The notes under the pieces were generated by a model. That model searched no databases. It was not told where the DNA came from and saw only the letters and a program-made list of their open reading frames with translations. A stretch of DNA of 64,000 nt from Ciborinia camelliae. Lineage: Eukaryota; Ascomycota; Leotiomycetes; Helotiales; Sclerotiniaceae. The stretch covers positions 1,096,299 through 1,160,298 of the forward strand of contig JANPYM010000011.1 in the NCBI GenBank assembly GCA_025890175.1, in the 5' to 3' direction. A program made the translations under genes and the position numbers. This document shows, piece by piece, positions 11,384-58,274 of the stretch. Positions within the stretch are counted from its first letter, which is position 1; every line of letters begins with the position of its first letter.

Positions 11384-11393
11384 NNNNNNNNNN
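11384..11393. other. Assembly gap (10 N) inside poly-C
   Basis: Ten undetermined bases are flanked by runs of C on both sides, so the gap probably reflects a homopolymer that assembly could not resolve. Its true length is unknown. Confidence 0.95.
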
Positions 11394-11989: not shown

Positions 11990-14900
11990 TTAACTTGAGA
12001 TCTCCTTCAAATACCCGGTGGCTCTGATATAAGAAACCAATTCAGCCTCCTTTGTGATACTGGGTAACACCTTCAAATCTCCTAAAGCTACCTTCATGTT
12101 CGACAAGAAGGTTGAAAATTCCAAATTTCTTTCTTTTTCCGATAACGCAACTTCTAGCAGGAAAGTAAGTGTCCTATAGATCTGCAACAGGAGTTTCTCT
12201 CTCTCGGCAGGGTAGAAGATTCGACGAGCTTCTACAATGCGCTGTTTGACAACCTTTATAATTTCTTGCCGGTACCGGCCTGAAGCAAGCCCAGCGTGGT
12301 CGAGAATCAGTGAAGCTAAAGTGCTCAAGCGGTTGGGCCATGTCTTTTCGCCTGCCGCAAACAATGTGACAATAGCGTCAAAGATGCATCCCAGGTCCCG
12401 AATTAGGATATCTTGAGATTCGGTTACGGCCATCCGTCCACCATAACCAGTATGACTTTGTCGCGCCAATTGGAAACCAGATTCTATAAAGGTCTGTAGC
12501 GAAGATATAATCGCATCACTTCCCTGCTCGAAAGCCGCGCGAAGCACCTCCATGCTTGCAAGTGTGAGGCTAAGCGCTTCATCATGTTTCTCGTTCTTCA
12601 GGCATTCTTGGTATTCTTCATATCTCCGTTTGAACAAATCCTCGGCCATGTAGTCCATTTTCGCTTCTAAAATCTGCCCCCACTTTATCACCCATTCCCC
12701 GCTAAATCTTTCCAGCAATATTTTCTTCCTACTTAACGCTAATGCTCGCAAGAGCTCAATTATAGCATGGGCAATGATCTCGGCATTGGCTGCATCTCGG
12801 ATTTTGATTGCGTTCGAGAATCGCCCTCCAAACATACCGATCAGTTTCTTCACGGATGCCTGGCAGTTTTCAGCGAGATCCTCCACATCATTGACCGCTT
12901 TCATCCAAAGCTTAGAAATGATAAAAGACAAGTGTTTAAACTCTGGTCCGCGTCCAACAGCTACCAAAAGTAATTCCATAGCGACGTGGCCCAGGAGGTC
13001 AGCTTTGTCTAAATCCTTTTCTGGAATCTGATCTGTATTTTTTAGGTATTCTTTGACCTCGTCCGCTCGGTTCTGAACTACACTTTCCAGCACCTGCTCA
13101 CCAAATTCTGGGTGTGCGAAGAGATTATTGAGGGAATCGACCCACTTATTGGCAATTAACTCAATTGCATCTCTTTCTTTGTGAAGAATGGCGCTTTCCA
13201 AGATATTCACTGCAGCTTCGGTCAACAGATCTAAGACTTTTAAGTGCTCTCCATTGAACTGGACGAATATACCTGTCCTTCTACGAGGATGTTGGAAGAG
13301 AACATCAGCCAGTCTAGTTACCCTGGCAAGTCTGCCTTTTTTGTTTCTAAAATATTCACAGAAACGGCTGTTTGCTTGCGGCAGTGACATGCGGTCGTGT
13401 TTTTGTTTGCTTGTTATTGTGTTGAGATTGCTACGTATATTTGTGGCCACCAAGTTTGTTATGTCCCGGAAGATATTTTCACCGAGATTGATCAAGCTCT
13501 CGAGAAGTTTGGTTTCATCTTTTTCAGTTTCGTTTACCATCTGATTTTCAAATTGGTTAATGATGCTGTTAATGACCCCCATGTTACTATTTTGAATCAT
13601 GAGCATAAAACTTCTTCGCTGAAATTGTTGCCAATCTCCTGTTTTGGGTGTACCGGCTACACCATAATGCGCAGCATTTGCGTCCCTCTCCAACAAAATT
13701 GCCCTGATCTTTTGATGGCCACGTTCAGTTGCAGCCTCATAGGCTGTTCCCATTTTCCCATTAGCGTTGCGAACCTCAGCACCCCTATTCAAAAGTAAAC
13801 GAACAATCTTCGAGCACCCTTGATATGCCGCCATGCGAAGAGCTGGTCCAACCATACCGCTTTGATTGTTGACATCCACCCCATGATCAATCAACTCCTC
13901 TATAATCTTCAGGTAAGCGTTGAGGTCTCCTCCTGGGTTAAAACCCGCAACTGCGGCTGTCACAGGGCTCCCGTATGTTTTATCTGTTGCACGACGATTT
14001 GTCTGTCTTGAACAAAGAAGCTTAACGAGATCTAAATGGCCGCAATAAGCTGCAGCATGAAGGGAAATACCCAACGGCCCGCAAGATTCAACGACTTTAG
14101 AATTTCCATAACTTTGAAGTATTCTTTTAGCACAAGCGCAGCACCCAATCGAGGAAATAGCTTGTAGAGCGGTTCCAAAAATGCTTTGTACCTTTACATT
14201 TGCTCCAGCCTTGACGAGATGTGATACTACAAGGCAAGATGATTTTAGGCGAGATGCTTCCTCCTCATGAAGCGCAGTCGCTGCTGTCTCCTTTTTCTTG
14301 TTCTTTACATAATGCTTTCTGCAAGCAGCAATCAACGCTGTCTCTTCGTTCTTGTCTTTGATATCAAGTTTAGCCTTTTCTTCAATAAGCAATTTTGTTG
14401 CATGCTGACATCCGTAATAAGCCGCATAATATATGGGGGTGCGATCTTGATCATCTGCCTCATTTATATTTTGGCCATATTGGATCAACTTCGTAACAGT
14501 GTCTACAAGGGATCCAATATCGCTCTCACTACGTAGCGCCCAATGTATCGGTCTCAGCCCGTCATCATCAGACTTGGCCACGTCAAACCAGTTCTTGTCC
14601 TTGAAGATATCGAAGATACTGAAAAGAGAAAAGTAGCTGAGGATATGTTCATGACTGACCCCGTTTGAAATTGCCTTCCCCAGGCTGTGCAAGTGCACCT
14701 GAAATGCTAGTTGTAGATTAATTTTCCTGTTGGCTGCTTCCCCTTTACCAAAGAGTATCTTAAGCAGATTGAGAACCTTGGAGAGGCTTTTTTCGATATC
14801 CGCTTTTTTCGCGTGAGGATTTGCATCGACGGTCTTTTTGATGCTCATAGCCCATTTAGAAGATGCAAATAGTAGAAATGGATGCTTCTGCAAGATCGGT

Positions 14901-16441
14901 CCAAGGCCACCAGCTTTGCACCATGTAGCGTCAATTTGAGGACCTTGGGAGAACTCTAGCGAGGACAGATATAATAAACAAAGTTCAGCAATTCGGCGGT
15001 AGTTAATATCTGACTTGTATTGAACAAAGAAGTCAAAAACGGTTTTGTGACAAAATCCAATGATCCCACGGTTTTCGTTGACTTGAACCAGGTGATTGCA
15101 AAATCGAGCAATTTTGAAAGGATCCTCGGTAAGTTCTCGATGAGTTATTGGGTTTAGTTTCCCATTGTTCGCATTCAATGAGAGCGCCACGATGATGGAT
15201 TTTTTTGTCATTGATCCCGCATTAGATGCTAGTAGGGCCATTGTCCTTGTAGCTATCTGATTCCCAATTAGACTCAGATCTTTCTCGAACTTTTCGGCGT
15301 AGTTTTTGTACATTTCTTCCATTCCATGTGGGTTTTCCAGAGCGTCTTGAACTTCTGACTCCAATATCATTTCACAGATATTAAATGTCTGTATGCGAAC
15401 CCATAAAAACCTTGAAATCTTCCTGTTAGCTGGCGCCAAAGAAACAAATTTTTGATTCTTACATTCCATCCGCTTTTTTGTTCAGTTCTTTCAAGACTAT
15501 CTTTCTAAACTCCGGGTTTTCGTCGAAAAGTGCAGACTTGAGATTTTTCTCTAGATAGGTTTTGATATCGCGTTCATTTTTGATAGTTGTAACTTCAATC
15601 GGAAATATTTCATACCCTAGCAACTGCTCCATACCGGTGCAATCACGAGAACTAATGGCCACACGAAGGCGACAGCCGCTCTTTTCGTCCTTCAGCTTTT
15701 GATCTAGGGATTTGAGTGCATTAATCAATACGAAACGAGACCGTTCGAGAAGATGATCCAGAGCATCAATAATGATGTATATATCACGTTTTGATGAAGC
15801 TAGACATTTAAGAAGCTCCTGTTCAATTGACTCGGGAGGAGAATCCGACTTAATATTGGTAGATTGTCTTTTGGATTTCTCGGTTGCCTGTCCCAAAAAG
15901 GTCAACAACATGTCTCGATAGAGCCTATCCTCTTTTTGATCGATCCCGTAGCCGATGAAGCAGTACAGGAGGTGGATAACCTCGGGACCCTCAGCTGCAC
16001 ATCTATTTGCATAAACGTTCTCAATCACACGGGACCTGATGAGCAGAGAATTAACCTCTATTTTTTTGAGCACTATTTAAATGGATGCTTACATTAAAGT
16101 CGATTTTCCGCATCCAGCTGTGTTTTAGTTAGCGTAATATTGTTTGCACCTAGTATCTTCTTTCGTGGGTGCAATAACTTACGACGGCCGTGCAGCCAGA
16201 GGAAGGAACATGCTTTGTTCGTTTTTTCCCAGTATTTGAAATTTTCCTCCTGTAACAGCCAGTCACAGGTATTAGAAGACTTCCATTTCGCTTTTGCCTT
16301 TTTATAATCGTTCGATGCAAACTCCTCCAGGGACGTCGTTTTGACTTGGCAATTACTGTAATTGTTGTCGCCAACGTGGACTCCAGTTGTTGTACCGGAA
16401 TTTTTGTGTTGGTAGATTGTGATGTTTTCTAAAGACATCAT
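11990..16441 (-). CDS. NLR-like receptor: N-terminal amyloid-type motif, NACHT/STAND NTPase, ankyrin repeats
   Basis: Likely a fungal NLR that senses a trigger and relays a cell-death signal. Four exons (16441-16183, 16117-16093, 16035-15463, 15410-11990; introns 65, 57 and 52 nt) give 1425 residues. Residues 14-27 carry a motif (N-S-G-T-T-T-G-V-H-V-G-D-N-N) shared with the divergent HeLo gene. The Walker A loop (G85-R-P-G-C-G-K-S-T93) is rebuilt only after splicing, with most of it on a 25-nt exon. Walker B is Y-I-I-I-D-A-L-D-H-L (about 181-190), followed by an I-S-S-R sensor-like motif near 221-224 and an A-D-G-M-F-L-W segment at about 283-289, typical of fungal NACHT proteins. Ankyrin repeats span about 569-866. 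The last roughly 555 residues are helical-looking and unassigned. An ATG three bases inside the first one is an alternative start. The intron model is strong because each join restores a conserved motif. Confidence 0.88.
16093..16117 (-). other. 25-nt micro-exon encoding the Walker A loop of the NLR
   Basis: This exon contributes most of P-G-C-G-K-S-T-L-M and is bounded by a CAG acceptor (intron 16118-16182) and a GTAAGC donor (intron 16036-16092). The first codon, Pro87, and the last, Met95, are split across introns. Skipping it would remove the ATP-binding loop and shift the frame. Confidence 0.8.
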
Positions 16442-17105
16442 GATTGGAACGATGGGTACTTTCTTCCTAGCATAGTTCTATACCATGTGGTTGATGTTGA
16501 CAACTGATGACAAGAGAGATTACTGTGACAGAAGATAACTTATTGTTTGATCGTTCGAAAGGCTGGAAGCGCGGGTGCTTACGGACAGCACGCTCTAGTT
16601 CATTCCTTAATCGTAGGCATGGAAGCTACTGACCTGCACTCGACCGGACTTGGAGCAATTTTTACTCCTACAAACGTGCAGGCTCTTACCCCTTCATTCT
16701 CTTCTTCGAGTAAAGATAAAATTTGTCGAACGTTCGCTGGGAGGTGGGGGGAAGGGGGAAGCACGCTACCCTCCCCCTCCCTCAAGACTATTTAATGCTA
16801 TCTACCAGTATCCATTGCTATTAACCTTATATCTGCGTAGGGTAAGTTTCGGGCTCTGTGGGTCTCCCCCCACTCTAGTATATGGTCACATGCATGCGCG
16901 CACGTGCCGGCGTGGCAGACGAATAAAACTTAATTGAGGCCTGCTGCTTCCAACTCAGATCAGCTGCATACTTGCGACCAACTGTTTACATTTGAGACCT
17001 ATAAAACATTGAATACAATTATTCTTTTGTCCATTTCGTCTTCATAAACTGCGCAAAGGGGTGCTTACTCTACCCATCAGTACTAAATCTCTCCTCTCCA
17101 CAACC
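16442..17105. promoter_or_regulatory. Shared divergent promoter of the NLR and HeLo genes
   Basis: About 660 bp separate the two start codons, which point away from each other. Both promoters must lie here, so the genes could share control elements. It contains G-rich and C-rich tracts at about 16740-16790. I could not identify a particular transcription-factor site. Confidence 0.6.
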
Positions 17106-17885
17106 ATGGACAGCGTGGGCACTGCTACCACTCTCTTCCAATTTGCCCTCGAAACTCTGGGTCATATACAACTTGCTAGGGAGTTTCAAGATGACTTTGA
17201 CCCCTATCAGTTGAAGCTCGACATCATGCAGCTTCGCCTTTCCCGCTGGGGCGAGATTGCCAGTATTACCACCATCGACAGCTCTGACAAGAGCGGAAAC
17301 GAAGCTCAGCGGGCAGACATGAAGAAAGTAGAAGAGATACTCGGTGACATCCAAAGTCGCTTGTGCATGGCTCAGCGCGATTCAAAAAAGTTGCAGGCAA
17401 AATTAGATGCCAACGGAGCTCAGGGGCTTGATCCAGAATCGTGCCTGTCCATAGATTTGAAGAAGATCCACAACCGGTTTATGACATTCCTTCACAAGCG
17501 CAAAATCCAAACTACTAAGGCCGTCGAAAGTCTTAAATGGATATTCTACCAAAAGGAACACTTCGAAAAATTTATAGTCGACATATCTGAGCTAATTGAC
17601 GGCCTCGAGAACACAATGCCGGAGGAGGATCGTAAGAAGCTCCGCAAGCTTAGCGATGAAGAGTGCAAGGGGATCAGCAAGTCAAATCTCGAGGAACTCA
17701 AGGACATTATTGATGGATGCGACCCCTGGCTGGAGAGCTCTGTGCATGGCGCACTGAATGCTAGAAGTTCTGGGACTGTCATCAACCAGTCTCACAATAC
17801 TGGCCATACGGTTGGAATTCACAACGGCGACATCAATAGAGGCAACGCCTATGGTCATGCCACAACAACTAATACATTCAACTAG
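17106..17885 (+). CDS. HeLo-domain cell-death effector with C-terminal amyloid-type motif
   Basis: Predicted 259-residue HET-S-like protein. HeLo domains are helical; in HET-S, amyloid templating of the C-terminal tail exposes a membrane-permeabilising N-terminal helix. Here the N-terminus is hydrophobic, followed by the family pattern I-Q-L-A-R-x-F, an L-K-L-D segment and R-L-S-R-W-G-E at about residues 38-52. The helical domain runs to about 215. The last about 42 residues are Gly/Asn/Thr/His-rich; residues 231-244 (N-T-G-H-T-V-G-I-H-N-G-D-I-N) match residues 14-27 of the divergent NLR at 8 of 14 positions. I chose the ATG at 17106 because it has an ACCATGG context and places the HeLo start correctly; an in-frame ATG at 17061 would add 15 residues. 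No introns. The tail is not the two-repeat sigma prion domain of HET-s and looks closer to PP/RHIM-type motifs, which is an inference. Confidence 0.88.
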   Translation: MDSVGTATTLFQFALETLGHIQLAREFQDDFDPYQLKLDIMQLRLSRWGEIASITTIDSSDKSGNEAQRADMKKVEEILGDIQSRLCMAQRDSKKLQAKLDANGAQGLDPESCLSIDLKKIHNRFMTFLHKRKIQTTKAVESLKWIFYQKEHFEKFIVDISELIDGLENTMPEEDRKKLRKLSDEECKGISKSNLEELKDIIDGCDPWLESSVHGALNARSSGTVINQSHNTGHTVGIHNGDINRGNAYGHATTTNTFN

Positions 17886-40689: not shown

Positions 40690-43600
40690 CTACATACGTT
40701 GCTCCGCCAAGCTCTTATTGAGTCTGGCTTGAACAGCTTCCTGTTGCGCATTCTGGCGGTTGAGGACAGGTGATAATGCTGATCGAGTCATAGCACTGCC
40801 GTCTCTCTGGTGGGAAGGGGTGAAGACTGGCGCAGTTGCTTTCAACACGTCTTCGCTGTCGGAATCGGAAAAACTCTTGTCGAACATTGTGGGTCTAGGA
40901 GGGAATGAAAATGAACCAGACGATGTGAAACCTCTTGCGGTTGGGGGAGAATGTCCTACATAAGCAGGTGGCATATGCGCAACTGGAACATGTGTTCGAA
41001 CTGAGATACCAGTTACTTCCGTGACTTTACCCGTGACTGGATCTGTGACTAGAACCGTTGACATTACAGGGTATTGATGGCTGACTTCCGGAGAAAAAAG
41101 TCCCTGTGAACTTTGTTCTTGCGGAAAAGAATACTGATTTTCATGGTGTGAAAATTCTCCATATGGTGATTGCGTTTTTGTTTGCACAAAGGGGTTATGA
41201 TGACTATTCTGAGAAGAGAAAACCGTATCATATTGCGGCTTGTTTGAACCCTGTTGGCTGTAGCCCGCCGGAGTTGATTGTGAAGTACGAGATGCGGGTT
41301 TGAAAACAGGAGCTTGGGGGCTTGCCCATTTTGATGTTGCCAGTCCGTTTGCACGCTTTTTCTGGAGTATTTCTTCAATAGTAGGGCTAGAACTGCGCTC
41401 CGGAACCGGCAAACCCTTGATTACTACACCATTATCCTTGTCAGTCTTAACGTCCAAATTGCTCAAAACTTGTGCAAGTCTATCGATCTCTGAATCAGTT
41501 GCTGCATGTCGACTCCTGGATGTAAGATGGCATTCAACCTTGGGTACAGTCGTCTCCTTTTCTGTGGCCTTTTTGAGCGCAAATGGATTAGTCTCTTGAG
41601 AATTAACGTTCTTCGCCATTTTGTTCCCAGATCTGTCAACAGTAACCCAGGCCCCAGTTTCGACAACGGTAACGGGCTTAACAGTAATGGGGGCCTCTTT
41701 CTGTTTCATATCCTTAAGTTCAAGAACCTGTTTAGAGTTTGAAGCAGTGTTAACTTTGGATACTGCTTGAGTTGTTGGAACTGTAGGGTTTGACTCTAAA
41801 ACAGACTTGTGGGAAATTGTCACAGGGACAGACTTTTGGGGTTCGGGAGTAAAAGCAGCATCTTTAGGTTCACTCTTAGGAGCTTGGGGGCTTTCAACTT
41901 CGATAAAAGGTTGTCTTTGCTTACGCCCCAAAATTTTATCCCACATGAATTCGGGAGTAGAATCGGCATCTCCAGGCTCGTTATTTGTGGCTTCAGGGCT
42001 TTTAACTTCGATAGAAGGCCGACTTTGCCTAGACGACAAGAGTTTTTCCCACATGAGAGGATCATGCACTTGTGTTGATCTCAAAGGTGTTGAAGATCCA
42101 CTCGATCGATCGGACGAGTCTTGTTTCTTGACGATCTGGCGCGGGGGATGTTTATAACCAGACGTGGCACGAAGAACATCTGCTTGATTAACGACCTCTG
42201 AAGTGGCATACCTAGAAGTGCCTAGACCTCTATTTGATGGAAGTACAAGAGGACTAGTATCACTTCCAGACTCCACCTTGAACTTCACCTCGCTCTCAAT
42301 AGTTGTGGCAGAATCCTTTGGAACATTGTGAGGTAGAACCTGAAGGTCAATAAAGGATGTTCCACTAGACTTGTCAGACAAACTCGAATGATATGCATTG
42401 GCCGATGATTTGCTGACATTATTTTCGGCTGAAACATTTGAAAGTACAGCATTCTCAGTGCTTTCACTACTGCCTGTGATTCGGTCTTCCTTAACAACTT
42501 TGGTGAGTTTTGAGGATGTATGATTGCTGGGAGTAACACTGAATTTGGTTTTCCATTCTGCAGGGGAAAGCTTGGAGAATGATGTGCCATATCCTTTGTC
42601 AAGAGAGTCTTGACGATCGGCACCTTCTGATGAATTGTAATTGGCATTTTCAACAGACAATGATTCCGGTGCGAGTCTTTTTTGTTGTGGTGGCTGCTTT
42701 TCAACAGTTTCATGTTGGTGGATGACCTGTGGAACTCCTTGCTTGCTAGCTGTGGTAGCGAATCGAGTCTTCCATTCGGAGGGTTGGAGTTTTGTAGCAG
42801 TAGCTCTATGTGAGTCCTTATACTGTGGTCCTCGACTCTTACCAGCCACAATTCGCACTCCCAAATCAGTAGTCTGAACGACTTCGGCTGGTGCTATCTC
42901 TCTTTTATAACCAGGTAGGTATTTTTGGAGAGAATCTCTTGCCTCGAAAACTTTTCTAGTTAAACTGGCAGCTGGTCGCATTTTCATCATCTCCTCTATT
43001 GAATAGATTATTCGTTCTTGTCTGGGAATGAGATCAGAAGTATCAACAGATTTGATGACTGTTGCAGGCTCTACAGCTTCAACAGCTTTGATATCTTCAG
43101 TGGGCTTGGCAGCTGCAACGGCTTTGATATCTTCAGTGGGCTTGGCAGCTTTAACAGCTTTGATAGCCTCGGCAGGCTTGGCAGCTTCAAAAATTTCAGA
43201 CACATTAACCAGTTGGCCAGCCTTTGCAGGGTTGAAGCTCTCAGTATAGTTAAAATGCTCTGTTTCATTAGCATTCTGAGGATTCTGGGCTTTGTCGAGA
43301 ATTTTCTTGGATATTTCTTTGATATAAGTGTCAATAAACTCCTGAGGGAATTGTAACAATGTTTTAGACTTTTTGAGAAAGTCTGCGACAAGTCCTTCCG
43401 TAACCGACAAGATATCAATGGGCTTCGAGTTTGAATAGCGAGAGGATGATAGTCCACCAATGAAAACATTCTTGGCATGCTTCATGAAGTCTGCATCGTC
43501 TTCAAGACCTACCACTTTTGCCAGCTGGGAAATGTGATCAATAAAAGAACCACCGTGGTCTGCGTTCAGAACCTGGAGTGTACCCTCAACGATATCTCCT

Positions 43601-45476
43601 TCCATTAAGCTTAAGAGGTCTTGAAAAGATGAATACACAACAGTTTCGTTATCCTCAGGTTGAATTTCCTCTTCGTGGAGAGAGAAAAGCATCTCTTGGC
43701 CATTGATTTCAGCGAGATCAGCAAATGTGGCACTGCTGATTCTGTTCGTAAAATATGATGTATCATTGAGCGCTGTTGTATTTGATGAGCCGGAAACTGC
43801 AGATGATTGAACGGGGGATGATGGAACGGGAGATGGAGGCATGAGTGAACTCTGATTTCCATCTTCCGAGGAGTGAGATGGGCAACCATTGTTACGTCTC
43901 AGCTCAGAAAGTTTGAAAATATTGTAATTGACGAAACTCTTGGCAGGACCTGGTAGCTGGAATTGGAATTTCCAGATGGGTGTTTGTTCTATATTAGAAT
44001 CAGCGCGATATGTGACAGTATTTATATCGACCTTAAGTGTCGCGGTCTCCGTCAGTAACTCGCTAAAAATAATATCACTGCCGATTTGAAGTTCGAGAGT
44101 CAAAGGAGATCTTTCATCAGATTTGACGAGTCTCACAATTCCTTGCTTGGTGGTCAAACTGTTGTTCTTGCTGGCCTTGACGCTTCTCTCATCTACTACA
44201 GTACGAATGACGACTGGCGTTTGGCGGATGGCTAGACCATTTGTCACCAAGGTTAGCGGGCCGGGAACAGTCGCAGGTTGAATAGAACGGTCCGAATGGG
44301 AATTATTTATAGGAGTGGCTGATATTGCTGATCTAACGGAATGACTTGACGCGGGAGTGCTTGTAGAAATTGTAGGTTTAGCCAATTGATGGGGGTCATT
44401 GGGCTCGGTCGTGTCAATAAGTGTAGCCGGAGATGCTGCCCATCGCGAAGCCGCAAGACCACCTTGAGGTGCCAAGTTGGATGCTGGTGGTGGTACCAAA
44501 AAACCATTGCCAGTGTTGGGTTGAGGTACAGAAATAACAGGCTCCACAACTCTTGCAGCTGGGCTAGAGCTAATATTAGCGTGTGAAAGAAAAGCTGCAG
44601 AGGAGACGAGCTTGAATTTCGAGGTTGGAGTAGGTCGAGGTACTACTGGAGAAGTAGCTCTAGTAACTGGATGGGAGGCAGCTCGAAGAGCAGCTTTCGC
44701 AGACCTGGGTGCTGATGGAGCCATCTTGACAGAACGACCCTCAGTTCGATGCATTCTGCTAAATTCAGCCTCGCGTTGTAAACGAGCAATACCAGCATCA
44801 ACTGTAGCATGAGATTTGCCACCACGTCTAGCATCATTGAAATAGGTTTGACTAGTGATTTGTTAGTTCAGAATGGACAATTTTCTGTTGGCGACAGCAT
44901 TTAGAAGCATAGACATACCCAGAACTCGAATGATCAACATTTCTGCCTTTTGGAGCAAAATTTCCGCGACCACCCACAGATGCATGACCACCTCTGTTCG
45001 AAGCGCCACCTCGACCGCGACCCGCCGAGTGACCACCTCTTCCACCACTACTTAGTCCACTACCACCTCTTCGGATTCGATATAATTGTCCGCCGGCAAT
45101 ATCTTCAAGATCTTCAAGGCCAGGCTCGATATCATCGAGACTGAGGTCTGAACAAGATGAGTCAGCACATATGCCAAAGCCAAAGTTTCTGAAAGTTGAA
45201 GTTGAACTTACTATGCCACGCAGATGCAGGGTTCTCTGGTCTAACACGTTTGGTGGGAAATTTCAATGGAACCATTGGAACATTAGCAGCTCTATCCTCG
45301 AGTGGTAAGGCATCTTTGCGACCAATACCAAGCTCTTCCTACATGGAGATTAGAATCTTACAAGGAACGAGTGTATGAGAACTTGCCATCATAGCTTGGT
45401 GTAGTGCCTCCATCTCAGCAGCCGATCTTTCTCTTTCCGTCGGCTCTTGGCCATATTCGCCATTTTCGTCCATCAT
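40690..45476 (-). CDS. Large RGG-rich, mostly disordered protein
   Basis: A 1535-residue protein that I cannot assign to a characterised family. Four exons (45476-45387, 45338-45212, 45147-44919, 44851-40690) with introns of 48, 64 and 66 nt. The first is a GC-AG intron. About residues 98-142 are rich in R-G-G and G-R-G, typical of RNA-binding tails. Most of the rest is Ser/Thr/Pro/Gln/Lys-rich and lacks a fold I can name. A more ordered, acidic helical segment lies around the middle (DNA about 43270-43720). A 12-residue Ala-Lys-Pro-Thr-Glu-Asp-Ile-Lys repeat follows it in the protein. RGG motifs together with long disorder suggest an mRNP-associated protein; that is inference. The start ATG at 45476 is followed directly by a second ATG. 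Confidence 0.8.
43070..43190 (-). repeat. 36-bp coding repeats in the RGG protein
   Basis: Three to four units with a 36-bp period encode a 12-residue Ala/Lys/Pro/Glu repeat (A-A-K-P-T-E-D-I-K-A-V). The two central units are nearly identical and the outer ones have diverged. All keep the frame. Confidence 0.75.
45339..45386 (-). other. Non-canonical GC-AG intron (48 nt)
   Basis: The first intron of the RGG gene starts GCAAGT and ends ATGTAG. It removes 48 nt in phase 0 and joins two coding exons in frame. Apart from the C, the donor matches consensus well, as known GC-AG introns do. No workable GT donor is nearby: the only GTAAG would leave a 23-nt intron. Confidence 0.65.
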
Positions 45477-57515: not shown

Positions 57516-58274
57516 TTAGGTCTCCTCTCTAATAACCGAGTTGGAAGATGCAAGACTACAACTTTCGAAAGTTGAAATTCGGCACCCAGTTTTACTACTA
57601 CTCCTCGTCCTCCTCCCCATCCTCCTCCCCATCCTCCTCCCCATCCTCCTCCCCATCCTCCTCCCCATCCTCCTCCCCATCCTCCTCCCCATCCTCCTCC
57701 CCATCCTCCTCCCCATCCCTCCTCCCCATCCTCCTCCCCATCCTCCTCCCCATCCTCCTCCCCATCCCTCCTCCCCATCCTCCTCCCCATCCTCCTCCCC
57801 ATCCTCCTCCCCATCCTCCTCCCCATCCTCCTCCCCATCCTCCTCCTCCTCGTCGCCTTCTTCATCATCCTCGTCCCTTTCTTTAGCCTCTGGCCAATCC
57901 CTTTTCTTTTCCGAGCCTGACCCACGTACTTTATGTTTTTCCACAAAAAGAGTTGCGGTATCACCTTCCCCTGTATCACTACAATGCCACTGCACCATTC
58001 CTTCACCGCGAGTTGTTATCTCACACAACTCATCCCCATGATGATACTCCCGTTCAACTAGCCTTTTGACGCAATTGTTGGCATCTTCAACGTCTACAAA
58101 AATGCCTGACACTTCGGAAGAGTCCTCTCCATATTGCATTTTTTCATGTTTGACGATGTAAACATATTGGATTGGTGAATCTGAATGCTTGGTGCGTTTC
58201 TTCTCGGGTTCAGTAACGGCGGACGTCTCTGTGGAGCGTAATACTCGTTTAGAGGAATTCATACCACTGGACAT
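57516..58274 (-). CDS. Unrecognised protein, tandem paralogue B, with frame-slipped acidic repeat
   Basis: Current frame gives 252 residues. Residues 37-123 match the folded segment of paralogue A. From about residue 141 the protein is encoded by a tandem 12-bp repeat and reads first as Glu-Glu-Asp-Gly units, then Gly-Gly-Trp-Gly, then Met-Gly-Arg-Arg. Each change coincides with one extra C (plus strand) in the repeat, near 57718 and near 57767. Without both insertions the acidic frame would run to a TAG at 57598-57600. The basic tail is therefore probably a product of slippage in the genome or of a sequencing or assembly error. The gene shares a 415-bp divergent promoter region with argB. 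Confidence 0.65.
   Translation of the reverse strand: MSSGMNSSKRVLRSTETSAVTEPEKKRTKHSDSPIQYVYIVKHEKMQYGEDSSEVSGIFVDVEDANNCVKRLVEREYHHGDELCEITTRGEGMVQWHCSDTGEGDTATLFVEKHKVRGSGSEKKRDWPEAKERDEDDEEGDEEEEDGEEDGEEDGEEDGEEDGEEDGEEGWGGGWGGGWGGGWGGGMGRRMGRRMGRRMGRRMGRRMGRRMGRRMGRRMGRRTRSSSKTGCRISTFESCSLASSNSVIREET
57608..57850. repeat. Coding minisatellite, 12-bp unit, about 20 copies
   Basis: The plus-strand unit is CCTCCTCCCCAT, repeated about 20 times almost without change. Two places (about 57718 and 57767) carry an extra C that shifts the phase. The array lies wholly inside the minus-strand gene and also creates long open frames on the plus strand that are shadows. Confidence 0.92.

Follow-up and report, generated by a model that had tools for sequence, protein, structure and literature searches.

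Divergent NLR/HeLo gene pair of Ciborinia camelliae with a shared, putative PP-related amyloid signalling motif lacking the central glutamine

Two neighbouring, divergently transcribed genes of Ciborinia camelliae encode an NLR receptor and a HeLo-domain effector with homologous copies of one short motif, located at the N-terminus of the receptor and at the C-terminus of the effector. The two genes very probably constitute a fungal NLR-to-HeLo amyloid-signalling pair for regulated cell death, of the NWD2/HET-S kind. This type of NLR/HeLo system is already known, and the motif is best explained, as far as its sequence indicates, as a divergent variety of the PP (RHIM-related) type that lacks the central Gln. 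The features of the pair, numbered within the window (i.e. the whole stretch of 64,000 nucleotides that was analysed), are as follows:

17106..17885, forward strand: HeLo-domain effector gene, single exon, 259 aa (PF14479, E=3.9e-29)
17118..17705, forward strand: HeLo domain, residues 5-200 (Pfam match; predicted helical fold, confidence mostly high)
17769..17882, forward strand: C-terminal tail, residues 222-259 (low model confidence, low charge)
17796..17837, forward strand: effector motif copy, residues 231-244, NTGHTVGIHNGDIN (alignment and profile searches)
16442..17105, no strand: divergent intergenic region between both start codons, 664 bp
11990..16441, reverse strand: NLR gene, 4 exons, 1425 or 1429 aa depending on the version of the third intron
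16441-16183, 16117-16093, 16035-15463 and 15410-11990 (homology-preferred) or 15422-11990 (first model), reverse strand: NLR exons
16361..16402, reverse strand: receptor motif copy, residues 14-27, NSGTTTGVHVGDNN (alignment and profile searches)
15645..16273, reverse strand: NPHP3_N/NACHT-type nucleotide-binding domain, residues 57-225 (NPHP3_N, E=2.5e-26)
13685..14515, reverse strand: ankyrin-repeat region, residues ~589-865 (ankyrins, E=8.7e-26)
11993..13670, reverse strand: NLR C-terminal region, ~560 aa, conserved across the receptor family

The effector HeLo domain is classical and homologous to the HeLo domains of HET-s and HET-S, on the grounds of both its sequence and its predicted fold. 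Besides the Pfam match, a PDB sequence search recovered the HET-s HeLo chain 2wvo (E=1.2e-15), and the predicted fold matched 2wvq/2wvn (E=3.6e-10, TM 0.89 by target length); all four chains matched at E<0.001 are HET-s or HET-S HeLo domains, in agreement with the HeLo effector of the original prediction. The structure model has a mean pLDDT of 81, and the tail, with values below 50 at residues 223-232, 236-240 and 242-259 of the monomer model, is probably unstructured. Its composition is poor in charged residues (DEKR 5%) and dominated by N, Q, G, S, T and H (71%), and a PDB search with the effector-tail profile gave no matches. The moderate hydropathy of the N-terminal HeLo helix (0.77) was weighed against the explanation as a cell-death pair.

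The NLR gene starts with the ATG at 16441 on the reverse strand, and its introns are predicted from sequence and homology. For the third intron, homology favours a length of 52 nt (15462-15411, with AAG at its end), which restores ADGMFLWV as found in relatives and yields a protein of 1425 aa; the alternative intron of 40 nt yields the 1429-aa version that was used in the searches, and neither version contains internal stops. The nucleotide-binding domain presents a Walker A motif (GRPGCGKS at 85) and a Walker B motif (YIIIDALD at 181), and no Pfam model matched the C-terminal ~560 aa over its cut-off. The receptor carries a short N-terminus without an effector domain and adjoins the HeLo gene across a gap of 664 bp. 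Elsewhere in the window, a stop-to-stop frame of 1390 aa (40690-44862, reverse strand) has no Pfam match at E 0.001 and includes a 36-bp tandem repeat (43074-43190), about 20 copies of the 12-bp unit TCCTCCTCCCCA form a nearly perfect array at 57608-57846, and the assembly contains a run of ten Ns between C-rich stretches near 11385.

Re-alignment reproduced both the residue ranges and the identity given in the original prediction: residues 14-27 of the receptor and 231-244 of the effector are identical at 8 of 14 positions. A local alignment of NLR residues 1-45 with HeLo residues 218-259 scored 59; when the HeLo tail was shuffled 20000 times, this score was reached twice. Profile searches in both directions extend this likeness to the relatives. 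The HeLo-tail profile, built from 45 relatives after the tails of P0028, P0043 and P0049 had been dropped, placed the window NLR, matched at residues 6-27 with E=1.9e-4, fifth of the 121 receptor-search proteins. At E<1 it detected 23 of the 121 proteins, all of them family receptors matched within their first 37 residues, and none of the 78 non-family proteins, a set that includes a few non-NLR ankyrin proteins; the motif-bearing family receptors P0076, P0072 and P0056 scored worse (E 1.9-2.6). Conversely, a profile of the N-termini of 25 related receptors matched the window HeLo tail with 18.7 bits, compared with 3.7 bits for the best of 500 shuffled tails, and it ranked the tails of 44 of 50 HeLo proteins higher than any of the 500 decoys. 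The remaining six are three tail-less proteins, two proteins with PP-type tails (P0047 and P0048) and another HeLo protein of the C. camelliae genome. Finally, profiles from 22 of the 46 usable tails and from 21 of the 25 relatives' motif-bearing N-termini, trimmed to ~26-43 aa and excluding the window, aligned with each other over 21 columns (probability 95%, E=2.8e-8). Chance, or a low complexity common to both segments, could be suspected, given their shortness, their high content of G, N, T and H and the two shuffles that attain the alignment score, but the profile-to-profile match and the reciprocal searches with decoys make this explanation practically negligible. Gene anatomy and reciprocal searches together bear out the proposal of a neighbouring NLR with a short N-terminus and a motif common to both proteins.

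The majority core reads N-[IV]-G-[LI]-[VAT]-Q-[GA]-[VI]-[HN]-x-G-D-N in receptors and N-T-G-x-[VT]-[TV]-G-[IV]-H-x-G-D in effectors. The PP core is given as NxGxQxGxN (PMC9815663) and the longer PP pattern as FxGx(x)NxGLQLxGxNxGxL (PMC3321046). Positions 1, 3, 7, 9 and 11 agree with the PP core, so that the N/G spacing of PP is kept among members that were chosen by likeness to their own consensus, and His is usual at position 9; this fits the predicted nearness to PP/RHIM motifs with a His in the core. None of the 24 receptors and none of the 43 effectors over the likeness cut has the central Gln at position 5, and Gln at position 6 occurs in 18 of the 24 receptors and in none of the 43 effectors; the window receptor has TTT where these 18 carry it. 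These counts lean towards the consensus because the cut (score 30) measures likeness to that consensus. It leaves out the effectors P0028, P0029, P0043, P0047, P0048 and P0049 and the receptors P0079 and P0088, both of which carry the motif by eye.

Two of these effectors link the motif to PP. P0047 (Lasiodiplodia theobromae) and P0048 present a PP-type core with Gln at the same place of the tail and also share a similar downstream G-x-S-x-G...N-x-W segment. The Pfam model for PP is PF17046, misnamed Ses_B according to PMC12261475; it matched full-length P0047, whose core reads NYGLQLGKNYG, with E=0.0011 and 19.2 bits, below the Pfam cut-off of 23.2, and did not match P0048. A tail profile built without these two proteins scored P0047 with 19.8 bits (best of 1000 shuffles, 9.7) and P0048 with 30.4 bits (best of 1000 shuffles, 12.8). 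In a HeLo-domain tree of 46 HeLo proteins and one outgroup, from which P0043, P0045 and P0049 were left out, both fall within a group of Botryosphaeriales proteins that bear the new core (support 97/91, and 96/92 one level up); the PP rows and the outgroup are on long branches, and the root is drawn. Because a PP-type core occurs in the same tail within the same HeLo clade, PP and the new motif appear to be two homologous forms taken by one and the same tail.

It is possible, though in our view doubtful, that the motif is an ordinary PP motif that has drifted and has nothing distinct about it. The identical spacing (N1-G3-G7-N/H9-G11), the PP-type tails inside the clade and the use of the Pfam model for comparison, rather than the published in-house PP profiles, are compatible with such drift. 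However, PF17046 matched 0 of 21 receptor N-termini, one of 22 tails and nothing in the window, the central Gln is missing from all members counted, and the receptor profile that recovers 44 HeLo proteins does not recover P0047 or P0048. For the same reasons, absence of the central Gln and of a PF17046 match in the window, the motif was not filed under PP. Assignment to sigma was also rejected: PF17106 matched neither the window nor the relatives' segments while its positive control P0133 scored 44 bits, and no repeated GxGxQFN or GGTQNIN units were seen in the motif segments, in keeping with the prediction that the tail is not of the sigma type. HRAM was set aside since each effector tail holds one motif copy, as judged by eye from the alignments, and not two pseudo-repeats. 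The HET-s models PF11558 and PF17108 had no match either, which is a weak test: the HRAM-like HeLo protein of the second pair described below is unmatched too, no positive control gave a match, and PF11558 is reported to match only 38 of 155 HRAM proteins (PMC4518210). A check against amyloid-motif models, as proposed with the original prediction, therefore left the window unmatched by the PP and sigma models and, with the weakness just described, by the HET-s models. PUASM, FxGxGxQxxGxGxF on a PNP_UDP effector, was discarded given the HeLo effector here, the patterns being compared by eye. PADLOC returned no families, and NCBIfam no match over a cut-off.

Within the C. camelliae genome (46.2 Mb, 27 contigs), profiles built only from relatives were run on six-frame translations of 46 loci, several of them overlapping. 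The set takes in 6 HeLo places and the top 30 of the 60 places matched by NPHP3_N; five loci belong to the window and three to a locus on C12. The search for the motif at NLR N-termini suggested with the original prediction singled out the window pair: clear matches occurred only at its two genes (31-36 bits with the profile of their own kind, 17.6-19.1 bits with that of the partner), and neither profile gave a further match at E<0.5 among the 46 loci, the next best scores being 8.5 bits at the C12 locus (E=0.55) and 6.0 bits (E=1.8). Searches of the genome with the window's own motif segments recovered only themselves. Searches with peptides from single relatives had little sensitivity: that with the receptor peptide missed even the window and gave no match at all, and that with the effector peptide recovered the window (E=0.011) and one other place (E=0.37). 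PP was sought as well, and its best PF17046 match (E=0.058, C12:2978455) was not accepted because the frame resembles a cytochrome P450 by eye. The same genome holds a second divergent HeLo/NLR pair (G000:C12:2550700-2560600), whose HeLo protein (302 aa) ends in a tail of another kind; by eye, the two pseudo-repeats of this tail resemble HRAM, though PF11558 gives no match.

Conservation across species was assessed with two protein searches. The HeLo search yielded 49 proteins including that of the window, 43 of which present the motif core over the likeness cut; named matches are ascomycetes, and the six species checked belong to Pezizomycotina. The receptor search yielded 195 proteins, from the best 120 of which a family was delimited (P0050-P0091, drawn at P0091; P0057 is a partial model of the window's own receptor). 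Including the window model, this family counts 43 receptors: 26 with the motif, 3 without it and 14 whose models miss the N-terminal end. On 14 relatives' contigs a HeLo gene appears to be accompanied by one or more receptors of these families, two genes being assigned to one contig when its length was identical and the species or source agreed. These pairs span Sordariomycetes, Leotiomycetes and Dothideomycetes, and a motif-bearing HeLo protein was also found in the Eurotiomycete Aspergillus wentii. Consecutive locus tags were observed in Botrytis deweyae (EAE98_004288/004289), Diatrype stigma (SLS62_010221/010220) and Daldinia eschscholtzii (Daesc_006887/006886). Homologues lacking the motif in both genes would speak against the original prediction; both copies are readable on 10 of the 14 contigs, and on the other four the deposited gene model misses the relevant end. 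The three motif-less receptors, P0063, P0064 and P0089 of Trichoderma, count against it: their N-terminus is present, and no partner on the same contig is found among the matches listed. Five Trichoderma HeLo proteins (P0026, P0029, P0033, P0035 and P0038) carry an altered tail core of the VLGVNNGN or VMGVNNG type, and these cores and the motif-less receptors perhaps represent a decaying or re-wired pair. Four Fusarium receptors (P0071, P0072, P0076 and P0081) have the motif, and no named Fusarium protein is among the 49 HeLo matches, which was likewise weighed against the explanation as a cell-death pair; their effector may be another domain.

Decay or loss of function of the pair in C. camelliae itself is quite unlikely. 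The window receptor does lack the common Gln, its introns are only predicted, and the Trichoderma receptors show that the motif can be absent, but neither frame (1425 and 259 codons) is interrupted by a stop, both Walker motifs are present, and the TA/AT ratios of the two genes (0.66 and 0.58) are, by thresholds that we presume to apply, not suggestive of RIP.

Over 11 pairs, including that of the window, cores of cognate partners are no more alike than those of permuted pairs: their likeness was reached in 7410 of 20000 permutations. Concerted evolution, in the sense of likeness within loci, was thus not seen in this test. For known systems, sigma extensions are described as grouping by locus (PMC3321046) and HRAM motifs as resembling those of the cognate partner (PMC4518210). 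The lack of cognate-specific likeness and the systematic differences between receptors and effectors speak against a simple copy of these systems. One speculative reading, which we hold to be rather improbable, is a PP/RHIM-derived signalling amyloid that has lost the hallmark Gln and whose partners are systematically unlike, with Gln at position 6 in receptors (G-x-V-Q-[GA]) and Thr or Val in effectors (G-x-V-T-G or G-x-T-V-G). If so, templating would be heterotypic and perhaps one-way, a seeding barrier towards PP and RHIM amyloids would be expected, and the change between this motif and PP within Botryosphaeriales, in whichever direction, would represent an evolutionary switch of signalling specificity.

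For the pair as a whole, amyloid formation, templating and killing are what we infer from the NWD2/HET-S and PNT1/HELLP precedents. A ligand sensed by the ankyrin and C-terminal regions would cause the NACHT-type domain to oligomerise, the clustered N-terminal motifs could then nucleate a cross-beta fold, and this fold would serve as template for the effector tail; once active at the plasma membrane, the HeLo domain would damage it and kill the cell. The segments might instead bind through a soluble, non-amyloid strand or coil contact, with HeLo recruited to the NLR oligomer and switched on there by proximity. Such a contact would suit a common part of only ~21 columns, and the amyloid character assumed here is drawn from precedent; we nonetheless consider it unlikely, as the low charge, richness in N, Q, G, S, T and H, likely disorder and position of the segments resemble validated amyloid signalling motifs, and the motif is apparently homologous to PP, which forms prions (PMC7885112).

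The original prediction held that both the motif subtype and the pairing may be undescribed. The pair architecture is of a standard kind, and therefore only the motif subtype may be new. In the literature searched, covering main texts and including PMC4518210, PMC3321046, PMC9815663, PMC5485727, PMC7885112, PMC12261475, PMC7889193, PMC12881547, PMC12258605 and PMC8086366, the motif is neither named nor described. Since supplements lie outside this search, the status as undescribed is provisional, and the distinction is based on Pfam, with the in-house PP profiles and the NLR34 motif outside the comparison; the latter appears in PMC9815663 as an unnamed motif of Ascomycota with no effector partner. 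Named families of fungal amyloid signalling motifs are few in the texts searched: HRAM, PP, sigma, PUASM and GDQN. A Gln-less PP/RHIM-like family on a classical HeLo domain would allow the role of the central glutamine to be tested, as well as the evolution of signalling specificity and a systematic difference between receptor and effector amyloids. The 14 of 43 receptor models without an N-terminal end, one being the fragment of the window's own gene, may show why such pairs are missed.

Several known systems resemble this pair. The GDQN motif of Fusarium oxysporum, recently proposed for an NLR and its effector, also contains G-D-x-N; it differs, in a comparison made by eye, in its spacing (NxxxGxQYxxxGxGDQN) and its SesA effector (PMC12261475). 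Sigma systems (HET-eN, SesA and SesB; PF17106) likewise combine a NACHT/ankyrin NLR that bears an N-terminal motif with an adjoining effector, whereas PF17106 and the repeated sigma units are not found here. PP systems (PNT1/HELLP of Podospora and Chaetomium; PF17046) are alike in the single-copy motif of ~20 aa at the NLR N-terminus and effector C-terminus, the spacing N-x-G-x-x-x-G-x-N/H-x-G, the adjacent genes and the cell-death effector. They are distinguished by the central Gln; here His is usual at position 9, G-D follows, and Gln at position 6 is confined to most receptors. In addition, the C. camelliae pair combines a classical HeLo domain with NACHT and ankyrin repeats, and Podospora HELLP/PNT1 a HeLo-like domain with NB-ARC and TPR. 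Of the two precedents originally invoked, HET-S/NWD2 and HELLP, both share the logic of the pair, but the domain of HELLP is HeLo-like rather than HeLo (PMC7885112). NWD2/HET-S (HRAM1) differs in the two 21-aa pseudo-repeats of its effector, compared with one copy here (by eye), in WD instead of ankyrin repeats, and in the Pfam HET-s models, whose failure to match here is a weak test. It is alike in the adjoining classical HeLo effector and NACHT NLR, in the same logic and in a homologous HeLo domain.
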